Assembly (NCBI RefSeq): GCF_017355525.1
Contig: NZ_CP067395.1
Span: forward strand, 744,001 to 808,000
Origin: Lysobacter enzymogenes
Lineage (GTDB): Bacteria > Pseudomonadota > Gammaproteobacteria > Xanthomonadales > Xanthomonadaceae
Direction of reading: 5' to 3'
DNA length: 64,000 nucleotides
Positions 44,978 through 63,535 of this stretch are shown here, piece by piece. The position numbers were made by a program, and so were the translations under genes. A model generated the notes under the pieces. The model worked only from the letters and a program-made list of their open reading frames with translations, did no database searches and was not told the origin of the DNA. The stretch's first letter is position 1. Every line of letters starts with the position of its first letter.

Positions 44978-46282
44978 ATGGGCTCGACGCCGAACGCCAG
45001 TCCCGCACCGCCGCCGCCTGCCGCCGCTGTGCGCGACTCCTGGCCGCGCCGCCATCGCGGCGTGTTGCTGACCTTGCTCGGCGTCGCCGCGCTGCTGGCG
45101 CTGGCGTGGTGGCTGGTGCACGGCCGCGCCGCGAACGAGCGCGGCAACCGCCGGCCCACCGCGACCGTCGGCATCGCCGTGGCCCGCGCCGGTTCGATCC
45201 CGATCACCCTGGAGGCCCTGGGCACGGTCACGCCGCTGGCGACCGCGACGGTGCGCCCGCAGGTGTCGGGCAACATCGTCGAGATCGCGTTCAAGGAAGG
45301 GCAGACGGTGCGCCAGGGCGAGGTGCTGCTGCGGATCGATCCGCGGCCGTTCCAGCTCGCGCTGGACCAGGCGCGCGGCGCGCTGGCGCGCGACGAGGCG
45401 CAGTTGCAGGTGGCGCGTCTGACCCTGAAACGCTACGCGCCGCTGGCCCACGACCAGACCATCGCGCAACAGGACTACGACACCCAGGCGGCGACGGTGC
45501 AACAGCTCACCGGCGTGGTCGCCGCCGACCGCGCGGCGATCGGCACCGCGTCGCTGAATCTCGATTACACCCAGGTGCGCGCGCCGATCGCCGGCCGGGT
45601 CGGCCTGCGCGTGGTCGATCTGGGCAACTACGTGACGCCCGGCGACGCCGCGGGCGTGGCGGTGATTTCCGCGGTGAGTCCGATCGATGTCGAGTTCACC
45701 GCGCCGCAGGACGATCTGCCGCGGATCCAGGCGCGGCTGGCGCGCGGCGATCCGCCGGCGGCGACCGTGCTCGACCGCACCCGCACCCAGGTGCTGGGTC
45801 AGGGCCGTTTCCTGACCCTCGACAACGCGATCGACCCCGGCACCGGCACGGTCAAGGCCAAGGCGCGTTTCGGCAACGACGACGCGCGTTTGTTCCCGAG
45901 CCAGTTCGTCAACGTGCGGGTGCTGCTGGACACCTTGCCCGATGCGGTGACCGTGCCGGCCGCAGCGCTGCGCACCGGGCCGAACGGCGATTTCGTCTAC
46001 GTCGTCGGCGCCGACCGCAAGGCGCAGCTGCGCAAAGTGACGCGCGGTCCCGCGGCCGGCGACACGGTGGCGGTGACGCAGGGGCTCAAGCTCGGCGAGC
46101 AGGTGGTGATCTCCGGCGGCGACCAGCTCAGCGACGGCGCCGCGGTGCGCCTGCCGGGCGACGCCGGCGCGAGCGGCGCGAACGGTGCAGGCAAAGCGGC
46201 CGGCGGCGAAGGCCGCGGCCACCGCCGCGCGCACGGCGCAGCGGGCGAGGGCGGCGCAAGCCAGCGCGGCGAGGGGCAATGA
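44978..46282 (+). CDS. mdtA: RND efflux periplasmic adaptor MdtA
   Basis: Membrane-fusion protein of 434 residues (ATG 44978; ATG 44969 is equally possible and neither has a strong site). One N-terminal helix ([19 protein letters not shown]) anchors it; lipoyl-like halves with a coiled-coil hairpin follow ([40 protein letters not shown]), then beta-barrel and membrane-proximal domains. It bridges the MdtBC pump to an outer-membrane channel. The C-terminal 60 residues are Gly/Ala/Arg-rich. Its stop overlaps the mdtB start. Confidence 0.92.
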
Positions 46283-49200
46283 ATCCCTCGCGCCCCTTCA
46301 TCCTGCGCCCGGTCGCCACCTCGCTGCTGATGGCGGCGATCGTGCTGGCCGGGCTGGCCGGGTTCCGCCTGCTGCCGCTGTCGGCGCTGCCGGAAGTCGA
46401 TTACCCGACCATCCAGGTGCAGACCGCCTATCCCGGCGCCAGCCCGGAAGTGATGGCGCATACCGTCACCGCGCCGCTGGAGCGCCAGTTCGGCCAGATG
46501 TCGGGCCTGCGCCGGATGAGTTCGACCAGCGCCGCCGGCGCCTCGGTCATCACCTTGCAGTTCGACCTCGACCAGACCCTGGACGTGGCCGAACAGGAAG
46601 TGCAGGCGGCGATCAACGCCGGCGGCAACCTGCTGCCGGCCGACCTGCCGGCGCCGCCGGTGTACGCCAAGGTCAATCCGGCCGATGCGCCGGTGCTGAC
46701 GCTCGCGGTGACCTCCGACACCTTGCCGCTGACCAAGGTCCAGGACCTGGTCAACACGCGTCTGGCCCAGGGCATTTCCCAGGTCGGCGGCGTCGGCCTG
46801 GTCTCGCTCAGCGGCGGCAACCGGCCGGCGGTGCGGATCCAGGCCGATCCGCAGTTGCTGGCCTCGTACGGCCTGGGCATCGACAGCCTGCGATCGGTCA
46901 TCGCCAGCGGCAACGCCAGCGGCGCCAAGGGCAGCTTCGACGGGCCCAGCCGTTCCTACGCGATCGACGCCAACGATCAGCTGACCAGCGCTGCGCAATA
47001 CCAGGACCTCATCGTCGCCTGGCGCGACAACGCGCCGATCCGTCTGCGCGATGTCGCCCACGTGGTCGAAAGCGCCGAGAACGTGCGCCTCGGCGCGTGG
47101 TCGGGGCTGACCCCGGCGATCATCGTCAACGTCCAGCGCCAGCCCGGCGCCAACGTCATCGCCACCGTCGATGCGATCAAGCAACGCCTGCCCGAATTGC
47201 AGGCGGGCCTGCCGGCCGGGCTCAAGGTCGAACTGCTCAGCGACCGCACCGCCGGCATCCGCGCCTCGGTGCGCGACGTCGAATTCGAGCTGCTGCTGGC
47301 GATCGCGCTGGTGGTCGCGGTGATCCTGGCGTTCCTGCGCAGCGTCGCGGCCACGGTCATCGCGAGCCTGGCGGTGCCGATCTCGCTGATCGGCACGTTC
47401 GGGGCGATGTACCTGCTCGGTTTCAGCCTCGACAACCTCAGCCTGATGGCGCTGACCATCGCCACCGGCTTCGTGGTCGACGACGCGATCGTGATGATCG
47501 AGAACATCTCGCGCTACATCGAGCGCGGCGAGCCGCCGTTCCAGGCCGCGCTGAAGGGCGCGCGCCAGATCGGCTTCACCATCATCTCGCTGACGGTGTC
47601 GCTGATCGCGGTGCTGATCCCGCTGCTGTTCATGGGCGACGTGGTCGGGCGGCTGTTCCGCGAGTTCGCGATCACCCTGGCGATCACCATCGTGATCTCG
47701 GCGGTGGTGTCGCTGACCCTGACCCCGATGCTGGCGGCGCGCTGGCTCAAGCCGGGCGGACACGACGAGCACGACGGCTTCATCGCCCGCGCGATCGAAC
47801 GCTACGGCGTCGCCCTGGACTGGGTGCTGGCGCGGCAGGGCGCGACCCTGCTGGTCGCGGCGGCGACGCTGGCGCTGACGGTGCTGCTGTACATCGTCAT
47901 TCCCAAGGGCCTGTTCCCGGTCCAGGATACCGGCCAGCTGCAGGCGCAGGTGCGCTACAACCGCGAGGTGTCCTACGCCGGCATGGCGCAAGCGCAGCAG
48001 GCGGTGGCCAAGGCGCTGCTGGCCGATCCCGACGTGGCCTCGCTGAGTTCCTACATCGGCGTGGACGGCGCCAACACCACGCTGCTGTCGGCCGGGCGCA
48101 TGCTGATCGACCTCAAGGACGCGCGCAGTTCTTCGCAGGAAGCGATCATGCAGCGCCTGCGCGAACGCGCCGCCGCGGTGCCCGGCGCGAGCCTGTACGT
48201 GCAGCCGGTGCAGGACCTGACGATCGATGCCGAAACCGGGCCGACCCAGAACCGCTTTTCGATCCAGGGTTCCGACCAGGCCGCGGTCGACCGCACCGCG
48301 CAGACCTTGGTCGCGAAGCTGCGCGACCTGCCGCAACTGCGCCACGTCGTCACCGACGCCGGCGCCACCGGCACCGCCGCCTACGTGGCGATCGACCGCG
48401 ACAGCGCCGCGCGCATGAACATCAGCGCCTCGACCGTCGATGAGGCGCTGTACAGCGCGTTCGGCCAGCGCATCGTCTCGACCATCTTCAACGAGACCTC
48501 GCAGTACCGGGTGATCCTGGAAGCGGCGCCGGGCCTGGCGACCAGCCCGGCCGACCTCGGCCGCCTGCACCTGCCGACCGCGACCGCGCCGACGCCGCTG
48601 TCGGCGATCGCCAGCGTCGGCGAACGGCCCGCGCCGTTGCAGGTCGATCACGTCGCCCAGTTCCCCGCGGCGACGGTCGGCTTCGACACCGCGCCGGGCG
48701 TGTCGCTCGGCAGCGCGGTCGACGCGATCCGCGCGGTCGCCGCGCAGGCGAACCTGCCGGCCGGGGTCAGCCTGTCGTTCCTCGGCGCCGCCAACGCCTA
48801 CGAGGCCTCGCTGCAGAACGAGCTGTGGCTGATCCTGGCCGCGGTGGTGTGCGTGTACATCGTGCTCGGCGTGTTGTACGAGAGCTACATTCATCCGCTG
48901 ACGATCCTGTCGACGCTGCCCTCGGCCGGCGTCGGCGCGCTGCTGGCGCTGATGCTGAGCGGCTCGGACCTCGGCGTGATCGGGATCATCGGCATCATCC
49001 TGCTGATCGGCATCGTCAAGAAGAACGCGATCATGATGATCGACTTCGCGATCGAGGCCGAACGCGAGCAGGGCATGGCGCCGCTGGCGGCGATCCGGCA
49101 GGCGGCGCTGCTGCGGTTCCGGCCGATCCTGATGACCACGCTGGCGGCGCTGTTCGCCGCGGTGCCGCTGATGCTCGGCTGGGGCGAGGGCTCGGAGCTG

Positions 49201-49377
49201 CGCCGGCCGCTGGGCATCGCGATCTTCGGCGGCCTGATCCTGAGCCAGATCCTGACCTTGTTCACCACGCCGGTGGTGTATCTGGCGTTCGACCGGCTCG
49301 GCAAGCGCGGCGCGCGCGCGGCGGGCGGCGCCGCGGCCAGCGCGGCCCCGGCGCCGGGAACGGAACCGCGCGCATGA
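46279..49377 (+). CDS. mdtB: RND multidrug efflux pump subunit MdtB
   Basis: Inner-membrane proton-driven exporter of 1032 residues with 12 predicted helices and two large periplasmic loops. The start ATG lies in the mdtA stop (ATGA). The conserved transmembrane Asp pair lies in [20 protein letters not shown] near residue 400. Family landmarks are [20 protein letters not shown] at the N terminus and [18 protein letters not shown] near 915. With MdtC it forms a heterotrimer. No tolC-like gene is visible in the window. Confidence 0.94.
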
Positions 49378-55555: not shown

Positions 55556-56677
55556 ATGCTGCGCCGCCTGTTCGCGTTCGCCTTCGTCCTCGCTGCCGCG
55601 TCCGCGTCGGCGGCGCCGGTGGACACGCTCGACCTCAACGTGCCGCTGGCGCCCGCGCCGGTGGTGGTGCAGGGCCGCGAGCGCCTGCTGTACGAACTGC
55701 ACCTGACCAACTTCGGCGCGGCGCCGTTGCGCCTGGACGGCCTGAGCGTGCTCGACGCCGACAGCGGCGCGGCGCTGGCGGGCTGGCGCGGCGACGCGCT
55801 GGCCGCGCGCGCGCGGGTGATCGGCGCGCAGAACGCGACCCTCGACGGCGCCTTGCAGCCGGGCGAGCGCGCGGTGCTGTACGTGGAACTGGACCTGCCG
55901 GCGCGCGCGCCGCGCGCGTTGCGGCACAAGGTCGAATTTTCCGCCGCCGACGCCGAGCCGGGCCAGGTCGAAGGCGCGCAGACGGTCCCGCGCGCGGCCG
56001 CGAAACTGCAACTGGCGCCGCCGCTGCGCGGCGGTCCGTGGGCGGCGATCTACGCGCCGCAGTGGCCGCGCGGGCACCGGCGGGTGTTCTACGCCCTCGA
56101 CGGACGCGCGCGCCTGCCGGGGCGCTACGCCATCGACTTCGTCCGCCTCGACGCGGACGGACGCAGCGCCCGCGGCGACGCCGACGTGGCGGCGAACGCG
56201 CTGGGTTACGGCGAGCCGGTGCTCGCGGTCGCCGACGGCACGATCGCCGCCGCGCGCGACGGCATCGCCGAGAACGAGCGGGTCTCGCAGCAGACCCGCA
56301 ATGACTTCGACCGTGCCGCCGGCAACTATGTCGCGCTGGCGCTCGGCGACGGCCGTTACGCGGTGTACGAGCACCTGCGTCCGGGCAGCCTGAAAGTGAA
56401 GCAGGGCCAGCGCGTGCGCCGCGGCCAAGCGATCGCCGAGCTCGGCTTCACCGGCGATTCGACCGGGCCGCACCTGCATTTCCACGTCGCCGACGCGGCG
56501 GTGCCGTTGCTCGGCGAAGGCGTGGGCTACGGCTTCGAAGGCTTCCGCCTGCTCGGCGCTTACCCGGACGCGAAAGGCATGGGCCAGCAGCCGTGGCAGC
56601 CGCGCGCCGACGAAGTCGCGGCGCAGCGCCGCAACGAATTGCCCGAGGCCAACTCGGTGATCGAATTTCCGCCTTGA
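55556..56677 (+). CDS. Exported M23 (LytM)-type metallopeptidase
   Basis: Exported protein of 373 residues. A signal peptide (LFAFAFVLAAASASAAP) precedes an N-terminal domain of about 190 residues that I do not recognise. The peptidase part has RYAIDFVRLD, YGEPVLAVADG, NYVALALGDGRYAVYEHLRP and the C-terminal Zn-ligand motif GPHLHFHV, as in the LytM family. The first ligand pair is not in the classical HxxxD form, so activity should be tested. Likely cell-wall remodelling, or lysis of competitors. Confidence 0.85.
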   Translation: MLRRLFAFAFVLAAASASAAPVDTLDLNVPLAPAPVVVQGRERLLYELHLTNFGAAPLRLDGLSVLDADSGAALAGWRGDALAARARVIGAQNATLDGALQPGERAVLYVELDLPARAPRALRHKVEFSAADAEPGQVEGAQTVPRAAAKLQLAPPLRGGPWAAIYAPQWPRGHRRVFYALDGRARLPGRYAIDFVRLDADGRSARGDADVAANALGYGEPVLAVADGTIAAARDGIAENERVSQQTRNDFDRAAGNYVALALGDGRYAVYEHLRPGSLKVKQGQRVRRGQAIAELGFTGDSTGPHLHFHVADAAVPLLGEGVGYGFEGFRLLGAYPDAKGMGQQPWQPRADEVAAQRRNELPEANSVIEFPP

Positions 56678-56782
56678 ACGGTCGGTGCGTCGATCGGGCT
56701 CGCTGTCGATCGGCTTGCGCAGCGATCGGGCTGCGCCTGGACCGGTTCCAGGGCGAGCGGAACGGATGAGGAATGCGCTGTT

Positions 56783-56893
56783 GCGGGAGGGGCTTCAGAG
56801 CCGAAGTTTCCGCTTCGACTCGTGCAAGCGGACTGCGGCGCCCGGATCGCGGTGACCTGAGCCAACCGCGTCGGAGCTGAAGCTCCTCCCACA
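56783..56893. repeat. Second-class REP pair (GGGAGGGGCTTCAG type)
   Basis: A forward copy at 56783-56806 (GCGGGAGGGGCTTCAGAGCC) and an inverted copy at 56870-56893 (GTCGGAGCTGAAGCTCCTCC) lie between the convergent M23 and YcaO genes. This differs from the CTGTAGGAGC class found elsewhere in the window. Confidence 0.75.
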
Positions 56894-56924
56894 AAAGCGC
56901 AAGCGCGCCGCGCCCGCGGCGCGC
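56893..56924 (-). terminator. Rho-independent terminator after the YcaO gene
   Basis: On the minus strand, immediately after the YcaO stop, a perfect GC-rich palindrome (GCGCGCCGCG / CGCGGCGCGC, 56903-56924) is followed by TTGCGCTTTT. The stem and U-rich end are strong for intrinsic termination. Confidence 0.7.
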
Positions 56925-58199
56925 TCAGGCCACGGCCACCTCGTCCGCGCGCGCCGCCGCGCTGCCCGGCACCGGCAAGCGGCCGGCGAGCAGATCGCGC
57001 CCGCGTTGCCCCGGCGCCATGACGATGCCGGAACACACCAGGAAGAACCGCTCCAGCGGCAGCGACACCACGTTGACCACGCAGAAACGCCCGGGCTCGT
57101 CGTGGTTGATCGCGTAATGCAGGTCGATCCCGCGCGCGCGCAGACGTTCGATCATCCGCTCCAGCAGCGCCGCCGGCGGCAGCGGCGGCGGCGCCGGATG
57201 CTCCCAGCGGCCGCGGCGCAGGCGCGCGCGGTCGACCGCGAACACCGCGCAGTCGCGCAGTTTCGGATACGCCGACAAGGCGTCGAGCACGGCCTGCGAA
57301 TAGCCGGCCAGCCGCGGCTGCATGCGCGGCAGTTCCAGCGACTGCACCAGCTCGGTGATCGCGCGGGTCGCGGCGTGTTCGGGATACAGCGAGGCGCCGT
57401 AACCGCAGGGATGGATCAGTTCGCCGTCGCGCAGATCGGTCGCGGTGGCGATGTAGCACGGCACGCCGAGGTCGCTGGTGGCGTCGATCAGCAGGATCTC
57501 GCGCTGCAGCTGCGCGCTGGCCGCGCGCAGGCGCTGGGCCAGCGGCGCGGGCAGGTCGTCCGGTTCCAGGCGGTAGCCGTGCGCGGCGGGGTCGCCGAGG
57601 TAGTGCGCGGTCAGGAACAGCGACCATGCGTCGCGTTCGACCAGTTCGCCGATCGCGTGCACCGCAGCCTCGGCCAGACTGCTGCCGATCGCGGTGCCGT
57701 TGTTGGAGCCGAAGCGCAGCGCGGCGGCGTAATCGAAATCGTCGTCGGGACCGCGCCAGTCGAGATAGGTGGGATAGGACAGGAACAGCGGCAAGGCGAT
57801 GTCCGGCTCGCCTTCGACGAAGGAGCGATAGGCGCGGCAGGCGAGCCGGCGCTGCGGCTGCGCGGCGAAGGTGGCGCGGAACGGCAGCGCGGCCAGGCGC
57901 GGATCGGCCAGGCAATCGGCGCCGCTGCGCAGGATCGGTTCGGCCTGCGCCGGCGCCTTGCCGGTGAACAGATGCTCGACCGCTTCGAACAACGCGCCGA
58001 CCCGCGACGGCGCGGCTTCGCCCTTGCCGAAGCCGTTGCCGAGCAGGCGGCCGTCGGCGTCGTCGTACAGCGAGCAGATCGTCGCCGCGAACGGTTCGCC
58101 GATGCGTTGCAGATCCGCGCGCCAGCCTTGCGCGTCGAGAAAGCCGCGCAGCGAGCGTTCGGCCTCGTCGAGGCTGCGTTCTCGTTCCAGGGGAATCAT
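56925..58199 (-). CDS. Stand-alone YcaO-family peptide-modifying enzyme (putative RiPP)
   Basis: YcaO enzyme of 424 residues; the family uses ATP to activate peptide backbone amides for azoline, amidine or thioamide formation. ATG 58199 follows AAGGGAGAG; a GTG at 58295 would add 32 Arg-rich residues. ATP-site segments are ALFEAVEH (69-76), SNNGTAIGSSLAEAAVHAIG (165-184) with GELVERDA, and the GYGASLYPEHAATRAITELV block (266-285). No ThiF/E1-like partner domain is fused, and the C terminus lacks PxPxP. The adjacent 46-residue peptide gene is the proposed substrate. Confidence 0.9.
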   Translation of the reverse strand: MIPLERERSLDEAERSLRGFLDAQGWRADLQRIGEPFAATICSLYDDADGRLLGNGFGKGEAAPSRVGALFEAVEHLFTGKAPAQAEPILRSGADCLADPRLAALPFRATFAAQPQRRLACRAYRSFVEGEPDIALPLFLSYPTYLDWRGPDDDFDYAAALRFGSNNGTAIGSSLAEAAVHAIGELVERDAWSLFLTAHYLGDPAAHGYRLEPDDLPAPLAQRLRAASAQLQREILLIDATSDLGVPCYIATATDLRDGELIHPCGYGASLYPEHAATRAITELVQSLELPRMQPRLAGYSQAVLDALSAYPKLRDCAVFAVDRARLRRGRWEHPAPPPLPPAALLERMIERLRARGIDLHYAINHDEPGRFCVVNVVSLPLERFFLVCSGIVMAPGQRGRDLLAGRLPVPGSAAARADEVAVA

Positions 58200-58294
58200 C
58201 GGCTGCGCTCTCCCTTGCGCTGGGCGACCGAATCGGAGGGTTCGGACGGATCGGCACCGCGGCCGCGGCAGGCGGCGGGTGCGGAGCACGGACA

Positions 58295-58325
58295 CGACGG
58301 CACGGAGGCGGCCTCCGTGCCGTCG
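58295..58325 (-). promoter_or_regulatory. Perfect hairpin between peptide gene and YcaO gene
   Basis: Arms CGACGGCACGGAGG (58295-58308) and CCTCCGTGCCGTCG (58312-58325) pair exactly with a 3-nt loop. It has no U-run, so it may act as a partial terminator or RNA-stabilising element that keeps peptide mRNA more abundant than enzyme mRNA, a common arrangement in RiPP operons. Confidence 0.75.
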
Positions 58326-58360
58326 CCGCGCCGGCTCGCGCCGGGCGCGTTCGTGCTGCC

Positions 58361-58501
58361 TTACTTGGCGTGCGCTTCCAGGAAATCCAGCTCGTCGACG
58401 GTCACTTCCTGCTGGACCTGATGGGCTTCCAGGGTCGACGTCGGTTCGATCAAACGCGGGCCGCTCTTCACGATCAGCGGCATATCGATCGTCTTCTTCA
58501 T
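58361..58501 (-). CDS. Candidate RiPP precursor peptide, 46 residues
   Basis: Start ATG 58501 is preceded by GAGGGACTAT, a near-perfect ribosome binding site, and the frame ends with TAA at 58361. The peptide begins MKKTIDMPLIVKSGPRLIEP and ends TVDELDFLEAHAK. It has no cysteine; modifiable Ser/Thr include S13, T21, S22 and T23 in PTST. The C-terminal third is acidic and probably helical, and could serve as a recognition segment. It lies 161 bp upstream of the YcaO gene on the same strand. No family was recognised; the precursor role is inference from size, translation signal and context. Confidence 0.7.
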   Translation of the reverse strand: MKKTIDMPLIVKSGPRLIEPTSTLEAHQVQQEVTVDELDFLEAHAK

Positions 58502-58692
58502 ATAGTCCCTCATATGGTTTTTTGTGGACGTGCGATGTCGCAGCGGACCGTTGCGGGCCAGCGCCCTCCCGGCGGCTGCCGCTCCTCTATACCAAACGCG
58601 CGCCGCTGTCGTGGCCGACTTCGTTTGGATTTGTGATGTAGCGACGGAGCGCGTGAACGCGGCGCGCATTCAGCCGCTCGCTGATTGCGATG

Positions 58693-59712
58693 TCAGTCGC
58701 GGCGGCGCCCGAACGCGGCGTAGGCCAGCACCCCGGTCAGCACGCACAGGCCCAGCACCACGCTCCAGAACCCGTGCGGGTTCTCGGCCAGCGGCATGCC
58801 GCCGACGTTCATGCCGAACAGGCCGGCGACGAGGTTGATCGGCAGCGCGACCACGGTGACCACGGTCAGCACGAACAGGGTGCGGCCGGTCTGCTCGTTG
58901 ACCAGCGCGGCCAGTTCTTCCTGGATCAGCTTGACCCGTTCGACCAGCGCGGCCGAGTCGCCGATCGAGGTCGAGAATTCCTCGGCGGCCTGTTGCAGGT
59001 CGCCGATGTCGTCGCGGCCGATCCAGTCCGGCGGGCGGTTGAGCAGGCGGAACAGCGCGGTCGGTTCCGGCGCCAGCAGCCGCTGCAGGCGCACCAGGCT
59101 GCGGCGCAGCGAACCCAGCTGGGTACGGTCGCTGGCGATGCGGTTGTCGAGCAGGCGGTCTTCGATGCGGTCGACCTGCTGGGTGCACTTGCGCAGGATC
59201 TCGCCGAGCACGCTGGCCTGGTCGCGCAGCAGGTGCGCGAGCAGTTCCACCGGCGAGCGGAACGACTGGCCCGAACGCACCGCCGCGCGCAGCTGGTCGA
59301 CCGAGCGCAGCGGGCGCAGGCGCGCGCTGACCAGCAGGCGCGGGCCGATGCACAAGGTAGTGGTGCCGACTTCCGAGGCGTCGAAGCTGGAGTCGAACAG
59401 CACGTCGTGGATCACCGCGATCAGGGCGTTGTCGTCGAGTTCCAGCCGGGTCGAGCCGACCTCGCTGCGCAGGCTGTCGTAGAACGCGTCGGGCAGTTGC
59501 AGGGCGCGGCGCAGGTAGCGCTCGCTGCCGGTGTTGGACAGGGAGAAATGCAGCCACAGGAAGCCGCGGCCGTCGTCGCCGTCGGCGGGCGCGGCCAGGA
59601 ACGCGGCGACCGCGTCGGTGCTGATCGCCTGCGCCGGCTGGCCGGGCACGAAGCGATAGCCCCAGATCAGGCCGTCTTCGTTGGAACCGTAGCTGGCGTC
59701 GACGATGCGCAT
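58693..59712 (-). CDS. zntB: CorA/ZntB-family divalent metal transporter
   Basis: Inner-membrane metal channel of 339 residues. A long cytoplasmic N domain precedes two C-terminal helices, with the family GMN motif in LVAGLFGMNVGGMP near residue 300. The sequence after it (PLAENPHGFW) and overall length are ZntB-like, so Zn efflux or Mg transport is possible. It lies upstream of the RiPP locus on the same strand but 191 bp apart, so a functional link is not evident. Confidence 0.87.
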   Translation of the reverse strand: MRIVDASYGSNEDGLIWGYRFVPGQPAQAISTDAVAAFLAAPADGDDGRGFLWLHFSLSNTGSERYLRRALQLPDAFYDSLRSEVGSTRLELDDNALIAVIHDVLFDSSFDASEVGTTTLCIGPRLLVSARLRPLRSVDQLRAAVRSGQSFRSPVELLAHLLRDQASVLGEILRKCTQQVDRIEDRLLDNRIASDRTQLGSLRRSLVRLQRLLAPEPTALFRLLNRPPDWIGRDDIGDLQQAAEEFSTSIGDSAALVERVKLIQEELAALVNEQTGRTLFVLTVVTVVALPINLVAGLFGMNVGGMPLAENPHGFWSVVLGLCVLTGVLAYAAFGRRRD

Positions 59713-61916: not shown

Positions 61917-62041
61917 GAGGGGGGCTTCGTTTCGTCGCCCTCAAGCCGTCCTCCCGACGTCGGTCGAGCGGCCGCTGCGGCTGGCCTGTGCCCAAGCCTT
62001 TAAGCGTTGTTGCAGGCATTCAACGCGAGACGGAGCAGGGC

Positions 62042-63535
62042 ATGGGCATCGAAAATCAGCGCTTGAGCGGCGGCGGGCGGGTGCAGTTGGCGAGCTGGGA
62101 CGAACTGCGCCCGACCGCGCACGGCCCGGAACTGCAGGGGCGGGCCTGGAACCCCAACGCCAGCCGCACCGGCCTGGCGTTCTACGATTCCACCGTGCAC
62201 TACATGCGCAACGACTGGGCCAGCCAGCACATGGACGTGGTGCCGGCGACGATGGGCGAGAAAAGCCTGCTGCTGTACCGCAACCGCGACTCGGACACCT
62301 GGCACAGCGCCGAAGCGCTCGACATCGACCACGTGCAGCCGTGGAAGCAGCACCTGACCGCGCTGGGCACGCGCTCGCAGGCCGACGCGCACATGGCCTA
62401 CAACGATGTCGGCAACCTGCGCGCGCTGCCGAGCGCGATCAACCGCGGCCGCGCCGCGGCCGAACGCGCGCTCGAGGCCGGCACCGATTCGCAGGCGTGG
62501 CAGACCTGGTCGCGCGGCCATTTCCACTACGACCACGGCGCGGCGCATCCGCCGTTCGACCCGGCCCGCGACGGCGCCCGCCGCACCACCACGCGCTTCC
62601 AGGACTGGACCCTCGACGACGGCCGCGCCTCGTTGAGCTTCGACACCCGGGTCGAAGGCAAGTGGTTCGAGCACCAACTGTCGCAGCAGTACCGCGGCAG
62701 CTTTACGATCACCTCCGACCAGGGCTACCACCGCGAGGTGCCGCTGTTCGAATGCCCGGCGACCGGGCAGCTGGTGACCCGCGACGCGTTCGACATCGAC
62801 CATATCCGTCCGTTCGAAGAAGTCGCGCGCGCGGCGCTGGCCGAGCGCGGCGGGCCGATCAGCAAGGCCGAGGCGCTGGATCTGTACAACGACACCGCGA
62901 ATCTGCGCCTGGTCAGCCGTTCGGCCAACTGTTCGCACGAATGGGAGCTCGACGCGCAGGGCGAGTACCTCGACCGCGGCGACCGCGAGCACGAGGAGCC
63001 GGAAAACGACCTCGACCGCGCGTTCGTCGAATTCGGCCCGGACACGCCGGAGGACCATCGCGCGTTCGGCGAGGTGCGGCGGTGGTTCGACCATCAGCCG
63101 CCGCCGCAGCCGGTGCAGGACGACGCGCAGTCGGTGCACGTGTTGCAGCCGCGTTATGCGCTCGGCCATGCGCGCAATCCCGACACCCCGCTGTACGACA
63201 AGCTGCACGGGCAGGTCGCCGGCCAGAACCTGCATCACGGCCTCGGGCTGACCCCGACCGAGACCGCCAACGTCGCCGCGGCGCTGACCCTGGCGGTGCG
63301 CAACCAGGGTTGGCCGGACGCGACCGGCGCGGTCTACAACCAGGGCCACTTCCACGCCTACACCGGCCAGCCCGACGCGATGGTGCACACCAGCGTCGAG
63401 CTGCAGGCCGCGCGCGCGACGCCGGCCAACGACAGCGGCCGGCAACTGCACCAGCTGCAGCAGAACCCGCAGCAGGTCCAGGACGACCCCGGCGTGCAGG
63501 CGATGGACGTGCAGCAGCACCACGGCCGGGTGTAA
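62042..63535 (+). CDS. Predicted T4SS antibacterial effector with two HNH-like nuclease modules
   Basis: Protein of 497 residues. ATG 62042 follows GGAGCAGGGC. There is no signal peptide. Two similar modules carry HNH-nuclease-like motifs: DIDH (94-97), ND and NLR (121-127), N134; and DIDH (251-254), YND (282-284), NLR (287-289), N296. The C-terminal part (about 366-480) has ARNPDTPLYDKLHGQV, ALTLAVRNQGWPDATGAVYN and a Gln-rich SGRQLHQLQQNPQQ, resembling the XVIPCD secretion signal of Xanthomonadales T4SS effectors. The likely role is a DNase toxin delivered to rival bacteria. No T4SS or obvious immunity gene is nearby. Confidence 0.78.
   Translation: MGIENQRLSGGGRVQLASWDELRPTAHGPELQGRAWNPNASRTGLAFYDSTVHYMRNDWASQHMDVVPATMGEKSLLLYRNRDSDTWHSAEALDIDHVQPWKQHLTALGTRSQADAHMAYNDVGNLRALPSAINRGRAAAERALEAGTDSQAWQTWSRGHFHYDHGAAHPPFDPARDGARRTTTRFQDWTLDDGRASLSFDTRVEGKWFEHQLSQQYRGSFTITSDQGYHREVPLFECPATGQLVTRDAFDIDHIRPFEEVARAALAERGGPISKAEALDLYNDTANLRLVSRSANCSHEWELDAQGEYLDRGDREHEEPENDLDRAFVEFGPDTPEDHRAFGEVRRWFDHQPPPQPVQDDAQSVHVLQPRYALGHARNPDTPLYDKLHGQVAGQNLHHGLGLTPTETANVAAALTLAVRNQGWPDATGAVYNQGHFHAYTGQPDAMVHTSVELQAARATPANDSGRQLHQLQQNPQQVQDDPGVQAMDVQQHHGRV

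Follow-up and report, generated by a model that had tools for sequence, protein, structure and literature searches.

What does a stand-alone YcaO enzyme do when its gene is directly preceded by one for a peptide of only 46 residues? This question is raised by a locus in Lysobacter enzymogenes (Xanthomonadaceae), found in a stretch of 64,000 nucleotides (nt) of contig NZ_CP067395.1 (assembly GCF_017355525.1, positions 744,001 to 808,000 of the forward strand; hereafter the window) from a genome of 5.95 Mb (G000). We found that the peptide-YcaO unit occurs repeatedly in Lysobacter, with more distant forms in other bacteria, and that the peptide gene is inherited as a pair with this clade of YcaO. 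The product of the cassette is probably a chemically modified peptide, seemingly of an undescribed kind. A first-pass annotation, made from the sequence alone, had called the locus undescribed-looking, which fits the open-access literature that we searched on YcaO with Lysobacter, stand-alone YcaO and Xanthomonadaceae. With amidine and Nonomuraea among the topics as well, no paper describing this peptide-YcaO pair was found in that literature, a search that leaves subscription journals mostly uncovered.

The peptide gene and YcaO form a pair

The first-pass annotation had placed a peptide frame with a good ribosome binding site upstream of a YcaO gene on the same strand, and the arrangement was confirmed. 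The precursor peptide gene (58361..58501, minus strand; MKKTIDMPLIVKSGPRLIEPTSTLEAHQVQQEVTVDELDFLEAHAK) encodes 46 residues and begins with Met-Lys-Lys, and GAGGGA (58506..58511, minus strand) stands 4 nt before its ATG at 58501; an alternative in-frame ATG at 58513 would give a 50-residue peptide and would overlap this ribosome site. After 161 nt on the same strand follows the gene of a stand-alone YcaO of 424 residues (56925..58199, minus strand), which scores 135.7 bits on PF02624 (cut-off 25.7). The longest open reading frame (ORF) would begin at 58295, but the start is most likely 58199, because MIPxERERxL is invariant in 14 aligned sequences, that of the window included; AAGGGAG (58210..58216, minus strand) is likely its ribosome site.

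The window YcaO was searched against 60 relatives (E <= 1e-3), and 14 genomes matched at 26 places. Full-length members of the family account for 23 of these places, one to three per genome, in 11 genomes that all belong to the same genus; the other three (in G011, G013 and G029) are partial matches. At all 22 fetched loci, a peptide gene of 45-59 residues with a ribosome site (a Shine-Dalgarno match of 4-7 bases each) lies directly upstream of the YcaO, and the window's own locus makes 23 of 23, with distances between the two genes of 70-161 nt. A profile built from 16 of the peptides was run on the 20 genus genomes that we compared, G000 included, and returned 33 rows: 24 strong matches (E up to 1.9e-15), every one adjoining one of the 23 family YcaOs, and nine weak pieces of 16 residues (E 0.009-0.06). 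Two tandem peptides precede a single YcaO at one locus (L047), with the second precursor at L047:8784-8921 (MKKTIEIFIIKSRP...), and up to three different peptide-YcaO pairs occur in one genome. The expectation that the frame stands beside orthologous YcaO genes was thus borne out in 11 of the 20 genus genomes, and no strong peptide match stood alone. A single-sequence scan of named genomes gave two loci, both from Lysobacter.

The limits of the unit could be read at one chromosomal site. A CorA gene was matched at E <= 1e-60 in 14 genus genomes, and an M23 peptidase gene lies beside it in 10 of them. The gap between the two is 1911-2058 bp in four genomes, where it holds the peptide and YcaO genes, and 10-169 bp in six, where it is empty; in the window it measures 2015 bp and is mostly taken up by the peptide and one YcaO. 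The two genes lie apart in G011, G012, G013 and G015. At this one site, genomes either have or lack the pair, with no other genes involved. From the annotation and this comparison, the CorA-type transporter gene (58693..59712, minus strand) and the M23 peptidase gene (55556..56677, plus strand, convergent with the pair) are flanks outside the cassette, the M23 gene staying where the cassette is absent. The earlier statement that no azole partner, peptidase or exporter lies nearby holds for the azole partner but not literally for the rest: the M23 gene adjoins, and the annotation of the window places an AcrB-type transporter gene at 45106-49377.

At the window locus and the 22 fetched ones, ORFs of more than 90 residues within 9 kb were compared all against all (E < 1e-12). 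All eight clades have in common only YcaO and ORFs that overlap it, the peptides being too short for this list. Some ORFs are common to two or three clades, many seemingly at the same chromosomal site, and not all were identified. Among the ORFs compared, neither an E1-like gene nor a dehydrogenase gene accompanies the cassette across clades, and no dedicated protease or exporter is common to all clades; a dedicated protease or exporter is not required in all ribosomally synthesized and post-translationally modified peptides (RiPPs). The best explanation of the locus, to which we give slightly better than even confidence, is a self-contained two-gene unit of RiPP type, about 1.6 kb long.

The peptide family keeps its C-terminus

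We assembled 59 peptide sequences, 24 from the loci and 35 from a database search; two truncated ones were dropped, and the remaining 57 comprise 49 distinct peptides. Thirty of these begin with Met-Lys-Lys, 18 with Met-Gly and one otherwise; at the Lysobacter loci, the window peptide belongs with the 14 of 23 that start Met-Lys-Lys, and the other nine start Met-Gly. The C-terminus ends in AK in 47 of the distinct peptides and in AR in two. Counted from the end, Thr stands at position -13 in 48 (Asn in one), and Glu at -10, Leu at -6 and Ala at -2 are found in all 49. The resulting consensus, TxxExxxLxxxA[KR], is represented in the window by TVDELDFLEAHAK, whose codons, with the stop, occupy 58361..58402 (minus strand). 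In the Met-Lys-Lys peptides, columns 14, 16 and 19, which lie behind an invariant Lys, are among the most variable; the Met-Gly type has few strongly variable columns. The nonsynonymous rate (dN) was lower than the synonymous rate (dS) in 25 of 26 within-clade pairs of these short sequences, the remaining pair being identical, and the peptide gene is thus under purifying selection as a protein. The window peptide has no match in Pfam or NCBIfam, and four distant precursors gave one weak unrelated match in NCBIfam, far under its cut-off.

A stand-alone YcaO with no apparent separate recognition domain

Residues E72, E75, E185, E188, R189 and E283 are invariant in 31 YcaO sequences, and we take their role to be ATP binding or hydrolysis. 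An AlphaFold2 model of the window YcaO (mean predicted local distance difference test score 88.2) matched the YcaO fold over residues 3-411. The closest structures are archaeal stand-alone YcaOs by Z (33.5) and LynD by Foldseek E-value; no separate recognition domain is apparent in the model or in the structure matches. The match lists show no bottromycin or streptamidine YcaO, which says nothing either way. In a tree of the YcaOs, the peptide types follow the YcaO clades: types A, B and C lie on separate branches or groups, and the Met-Gly type C groups with three proteins from the database (P0040-P0042) with moderate support (83/69). The order among the A groups is poorly supported, and the deep branches are long and unsure.

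Three other origins or roles of the enzyme were considered and rejected. The housekeeping E. coli-type YcaO (uL16) is represented by NF040716, which is not among the three NCBIfam families listed at E up to 10. A phage origin found no PHROG match and no confirmed relative in viral contigs (query A3), and as for a defence system, the window YcaO is without a PADLOC match.

Relatives outside Lysobacter

A large protein search, in which 8000 candidates were scored, gave at least 57 proteins at E <= 1e-10. Many of the matches are metagenomic and the named ones are mostly Lysobacter, the other labels being two of Pseudomonas sp. CGJS7 and one partial Actinomadura entry. P0040-P0042 are about 40% identical to the window YcaO, one of them from a Xanthomonadaceae metagenome-assembled genome, and ten matches lie at 34-38% identity, those named being Nonomuraea. 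Plasmid records hold YcaO relatives in Nonomuraea gerenzanensis, Streptomyces, Pantoea, Vibrio and Mycobacteroides, and a genome search found one in another genus of the same family (G547).

Upstream of these distant YcaOs, we looked for mini-ORFs that begin with ATG, encode 28-75 residues, have a ribosome site of at least 4 bases and lie within 600 nt. All of seven distant loci have a Met-Gly ORF, and seven of the eight ORFs found there start Met-Gly; with V. europaeus added as the eighth such locus and one (L190, from G117) having none, the count is 8 of 9 distant loci, in six other lineages. The rule was framed after five loci; L118, L119 and L193 came later and agree, L193 being close to V. 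lentus. As controls, 17 distinct generic YcaO loci (21 with a match, four refetched) yielded 18 distinct mini-ORFs, of which one was Met-Gly. These loci came from phylum and class scans with query A3, which returned mostly generic YcaOs; L192, L106 and L108 were without sequence upstream of the open frame, and L065 had no match. Two TfuA-type loci had no Met-Gly ORF.

The distant peptides resemble those of Lysobacter to different degrees. The pattern [TSN]xxExxx[LIF], chosen after inspection, occurs in six of eight distant precursors versus 1.25 expected. With a profile of the Lysobacter tail, the Nonomuraea peptide was clear (0 of 5000 shuffles), V. lentus gave p 0.014 and V. europaeus p 0.043, and the other five of the eight were not significant. 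Conservation in three Streptomyces homologues is highest in MGTGDL[RK][VL]LCTAATG, and their far C-terminus is variable; the N-terminal MGTGDL recurs in two further Streptomyces peptides. The neighbours of the distant loci differ, with a SagB dehydrogenase in Streptomyces, an ATP-binding cassette (ABC) transporter in Vibrio, a methyltransferase in Pantoea and a NACHT NTPase plus subtilase in Nonomuraea. At the last (N. gerenzanensis, L092:9205-12718), the NACHT-type NTPase gene, after a gap of about 31 nt, and then the subtilase gene lie on the same strand behind the Met-Gly peptide and YcaO; they may represent a regulator, a maturation protease or a link to defence.

Proposed chemistry and its rivals

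YcaOs activate a backbone amide with ATP so that a nucleophile can attack it, and we infer that this YcaO modifies the peptide encoded beside it. In the mechanism that we propose, the C-terminal TxxE..L..A[KR] helix would be a follower that lets the YcaO hold its substrate with no partner protein involved, and the core would lie in the N-terminal or middle part of the peptide; this division of the peptide seems likely. The YcaO, with ATP, would then activate a core backbone amide, and an amine of the same peptide would attack it to give an amidine, a step that we hold tentatively, with somewhat less than even confidence. That the relatives start Met-Gly suggests the N-terminal amine as the nucleophile, as in bottromycin. 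In Met-Gly members, this would be the alpha-amine of Gly2 after removal of Met, as in bottromycin; in Met-Lys-Lys members, including the window, it would be the amine of Met1 at the N-terminus or that of a Lys side chain. Trimming of the product would fall to a protease encoded elsewhere, and that the product is a bioactive peptide is a guess. As a whole, the reading of a two-gene unit with a follower, a partnerless YcaO and an amidine as its most likely product is the one that we favour, by a modest degree of confidence.

A bolder extension would see a widespread, unrecognised minimal class of RiPPs in Pseudomonadota and Actinomycetota, built of one YcaO and one mini-peptide, in which the C-terminal TxxE..L helix is read and an N-terminal-amine amidine is formed (through Gly2 in the Met-Gly branch), the nucleophile having switched to the Lys side chain in the Met-Lys-Lys branch of Lysobacter. 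All these parts together make a proposal that we regard as speculative and doubtful. If an amidine or lysine-amidine product is true, the cassette would provide a two-gene tool for constrained peptides, and a lysine side chain as nucleophile would be new YcaO chemistry.

The main rival, which we think rather unlikely, is thioamidation: the YcaO would convert a single backbone amide of the peptide, using sulfide supplied by a general donor and without TfuA. The structural closeness to LynD and, best by Z, to archaeal stand-alone YcaOs agrees with it, as does a match of the window YcaO to methan_mark_1 (TIGR03266) with 58.8 bits, although this stays below the cut-off of 365. A thioamide requires no Cys, Ser or Thr, and E. 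coli YcaO thioamidates uL16 though E. coli encodes no TfuA, as stated in the accessible part of PMC13063428. Sulfide fed by TfuA itself is unlikely. Among the 20 genus genomes, TfuA is present in exactly G011 and G013, neither of which has this YcaO family, and no PF07812 match at E <= 1e-5 was found in any of the 11 genomes that carry the family. A PF02624 search agrees with this division, giving 27 YcaOs in 13 of the 20 genomes, namely the 23 family members and four in G011 and G013. Thioamidation also leaves the Met-Gly start of the relatives unexplained.

It is improbable that a Ser, Thr or Cys residue of the peptide is turned into an oxazoline or thiazoline, the chemistry of linear azole peptides. 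The best NCBIfam match of the window YcaO is the SagD-family profile, and a SagB dehydrogenase stands beside the Streptomyces relative; the SagD match, however, reaches 64.8 bits and the cut-off is 219.25, and the lack of a dehydrogenase or E1-like gene kept across clades argues against this chemistry. The motif Thr, present in 48 of 49 peptides, could be a site, but Cys is absent from 48 of the 49, and apart from this Thr no Ser/Thr/Cys column of the 30 Met-Lys-Lys peptides exceeds 60% (columns 7, 8 and 13 reach 57, 57 and 60%). A side-chain thiol or hydroxyl as nucleophile is disfavoured in the Met-Lys-Lys peptides. In the Met-Gly peptides of Lysobacter, alignment columns 22 and 32 are without exception Ser or Thr, so for them an azole can still be entertained.

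Less probable still, the peptide would be a regulator or subunit of the YcaO, which would modify another protein. Such a role would suit the lack of an exporter or protease kept with the pair, the good conservation of the peptides inside clades and the few strongly variable columns of the Met-Gly type; against it, the window peptide shares only 24-42% identity with those of other groups, up to three different pairs share a genome and tandem peptides precede one YcaO at L047. Finally, the small ORF might have arisen by chance or be non-coding, for instance an attenuator, as the hairpin behind it might suggest; this is highly improbable given the frame, ribosome site and C-terminus kept at 23 of 23 loci and the excess of dS over dN.

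Comparison with known systems

In the accessible parts of the sources, the bottromycin YcaOs BtmE and BtmF are without a cyclodehydratase partner (PMC5103208, PMC7136475), as is the YcaO of the cassette; we set the window YcaO beside these two by description only. For bottromycin, attack on the Val4-Val5 amide is ascribed to Gly1, and a follower is apparently needed (PMC5103208). Its precursor has an N-terminal core and a C-terminal follower, to which the conserved C-terminal motif of the cassette peptide, a putative follower, may correspond. The Met-Gly start of bottromycin is shared by the distant relatives and the Met-Gly type of Lysobacter, whereas the window precursor is Met-Lys-Lys. As far as those sources describe it, the bottromycin cluster has two YcaOs, methyltransferases, a P450, an amidohydrolase and a Met aminopeptidase; the cassette has one YcaO.

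Streptamidine, an amidine whose YcaO (AmiD) has no fused domain and which was found by precursor mining, is also like the cassette, but its cluster holds a hydrolase, a dehydrogenase and a protein with weak similarity to E1 domains, and its YcaO has a proline-rich C-terminus, according to the sections available of PMC8442711. The main text of that paper does not mention Lysobacter. It states, in the same sections, that the substrates of most stand-alone actinobacterial YcaOs are unknown (PMC8442711); here, the one-to-one pairing of the genes fixes the likely YcaO substrate. The daptide enzyme DapY shares an amine nucleophile with the proposed mechanism; it makes an imidazoline, other enzymes first make its amine and a PxPxP motif is present, as far as the text at hand reports (PMC12338566). 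The YcaO-TfuA loci of G011 and G013 belong to the same superfamily and genus as the cassette, but they have a TfuA gene in the same place, lack a strong match to this type of peptide and match the window YcaO only partially. Archaeal YcaOs (MJ1094, Methanopyrus) are 20% identical to the window YcaO. The archaeal enzyme modifies a protein, McrA, not an adjacent mini-peptide.

A Lysobacter YcaO gene that may or may not belong to this family is transcribed: according to PMC10745450, its level rose 2.5-fold in L. gummosus, and those of three orthologs rose in L. capsici; the word RiPP is absent from the text of that paper.

Transcript features and surroundings

A perfect 15-bp inverted repeat lies between the peptide stop and the YcaO start (58295..58325, minus strand), and may act as a partial terminator or as a hairpin that stabilizes the mRNA. 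The RNA of this intergenic region folds with a z of -3.40. Perfect stems of at least 10 bp are found between the two genes at 14 of 23 loci versus 0.68 expected (200 dinucleotide shuffles each); among the other nine loci, four have stems of 5 bp and five of 6-8 bp. A hairpin behind a RiPP precursor gene is common and may lift the precursor over the enzyme, and by the intergenic hairpin the precursor may here be made in excess of the YcaO. A stem with a T run resembling an intrinsic terminator lies at the YcaO stop (56900..56927, minus strand); the terminator scan of the region gave three sites versus 0.9 expected, two of the three being overlapping forms of this stem. A promoter scan found no sigma-70 site.

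Beside the cassette, at 56780-56900 of the window, is a GC-rich repeat that contains GGGAGGAGCTTCAGCTCC on the minus strand, and a similar GC-rich repeat occurs at the empty site of G018 and beside the cassette in G004 and G009. Among the generic YcaO loci, similar ORFs of 43-47 residues with a ribosome site, ending in ...HALKFR or HALRFR, precede the YcaO at L099, L101 and L102 (G1016, G816 and G874) and look like another precursor family. Similar 72-residue ORFs (MANVVVIG..., MSKVVVIG...) stand before the YcaO at L104/L117 and L195, and at L195 a TfuA gene follows the YcaO. Elsewhere in the window, the gene at 61988-63535 (plus strand) encodes a GHE-type nuclease domain (PF14410) with a C-terminal match to X-Tfes XVIPCD (22.9 bits versus a cut-off of 24.9), and its domains suggest that the protein is possibly an antibacterial effector of type IV secretion.
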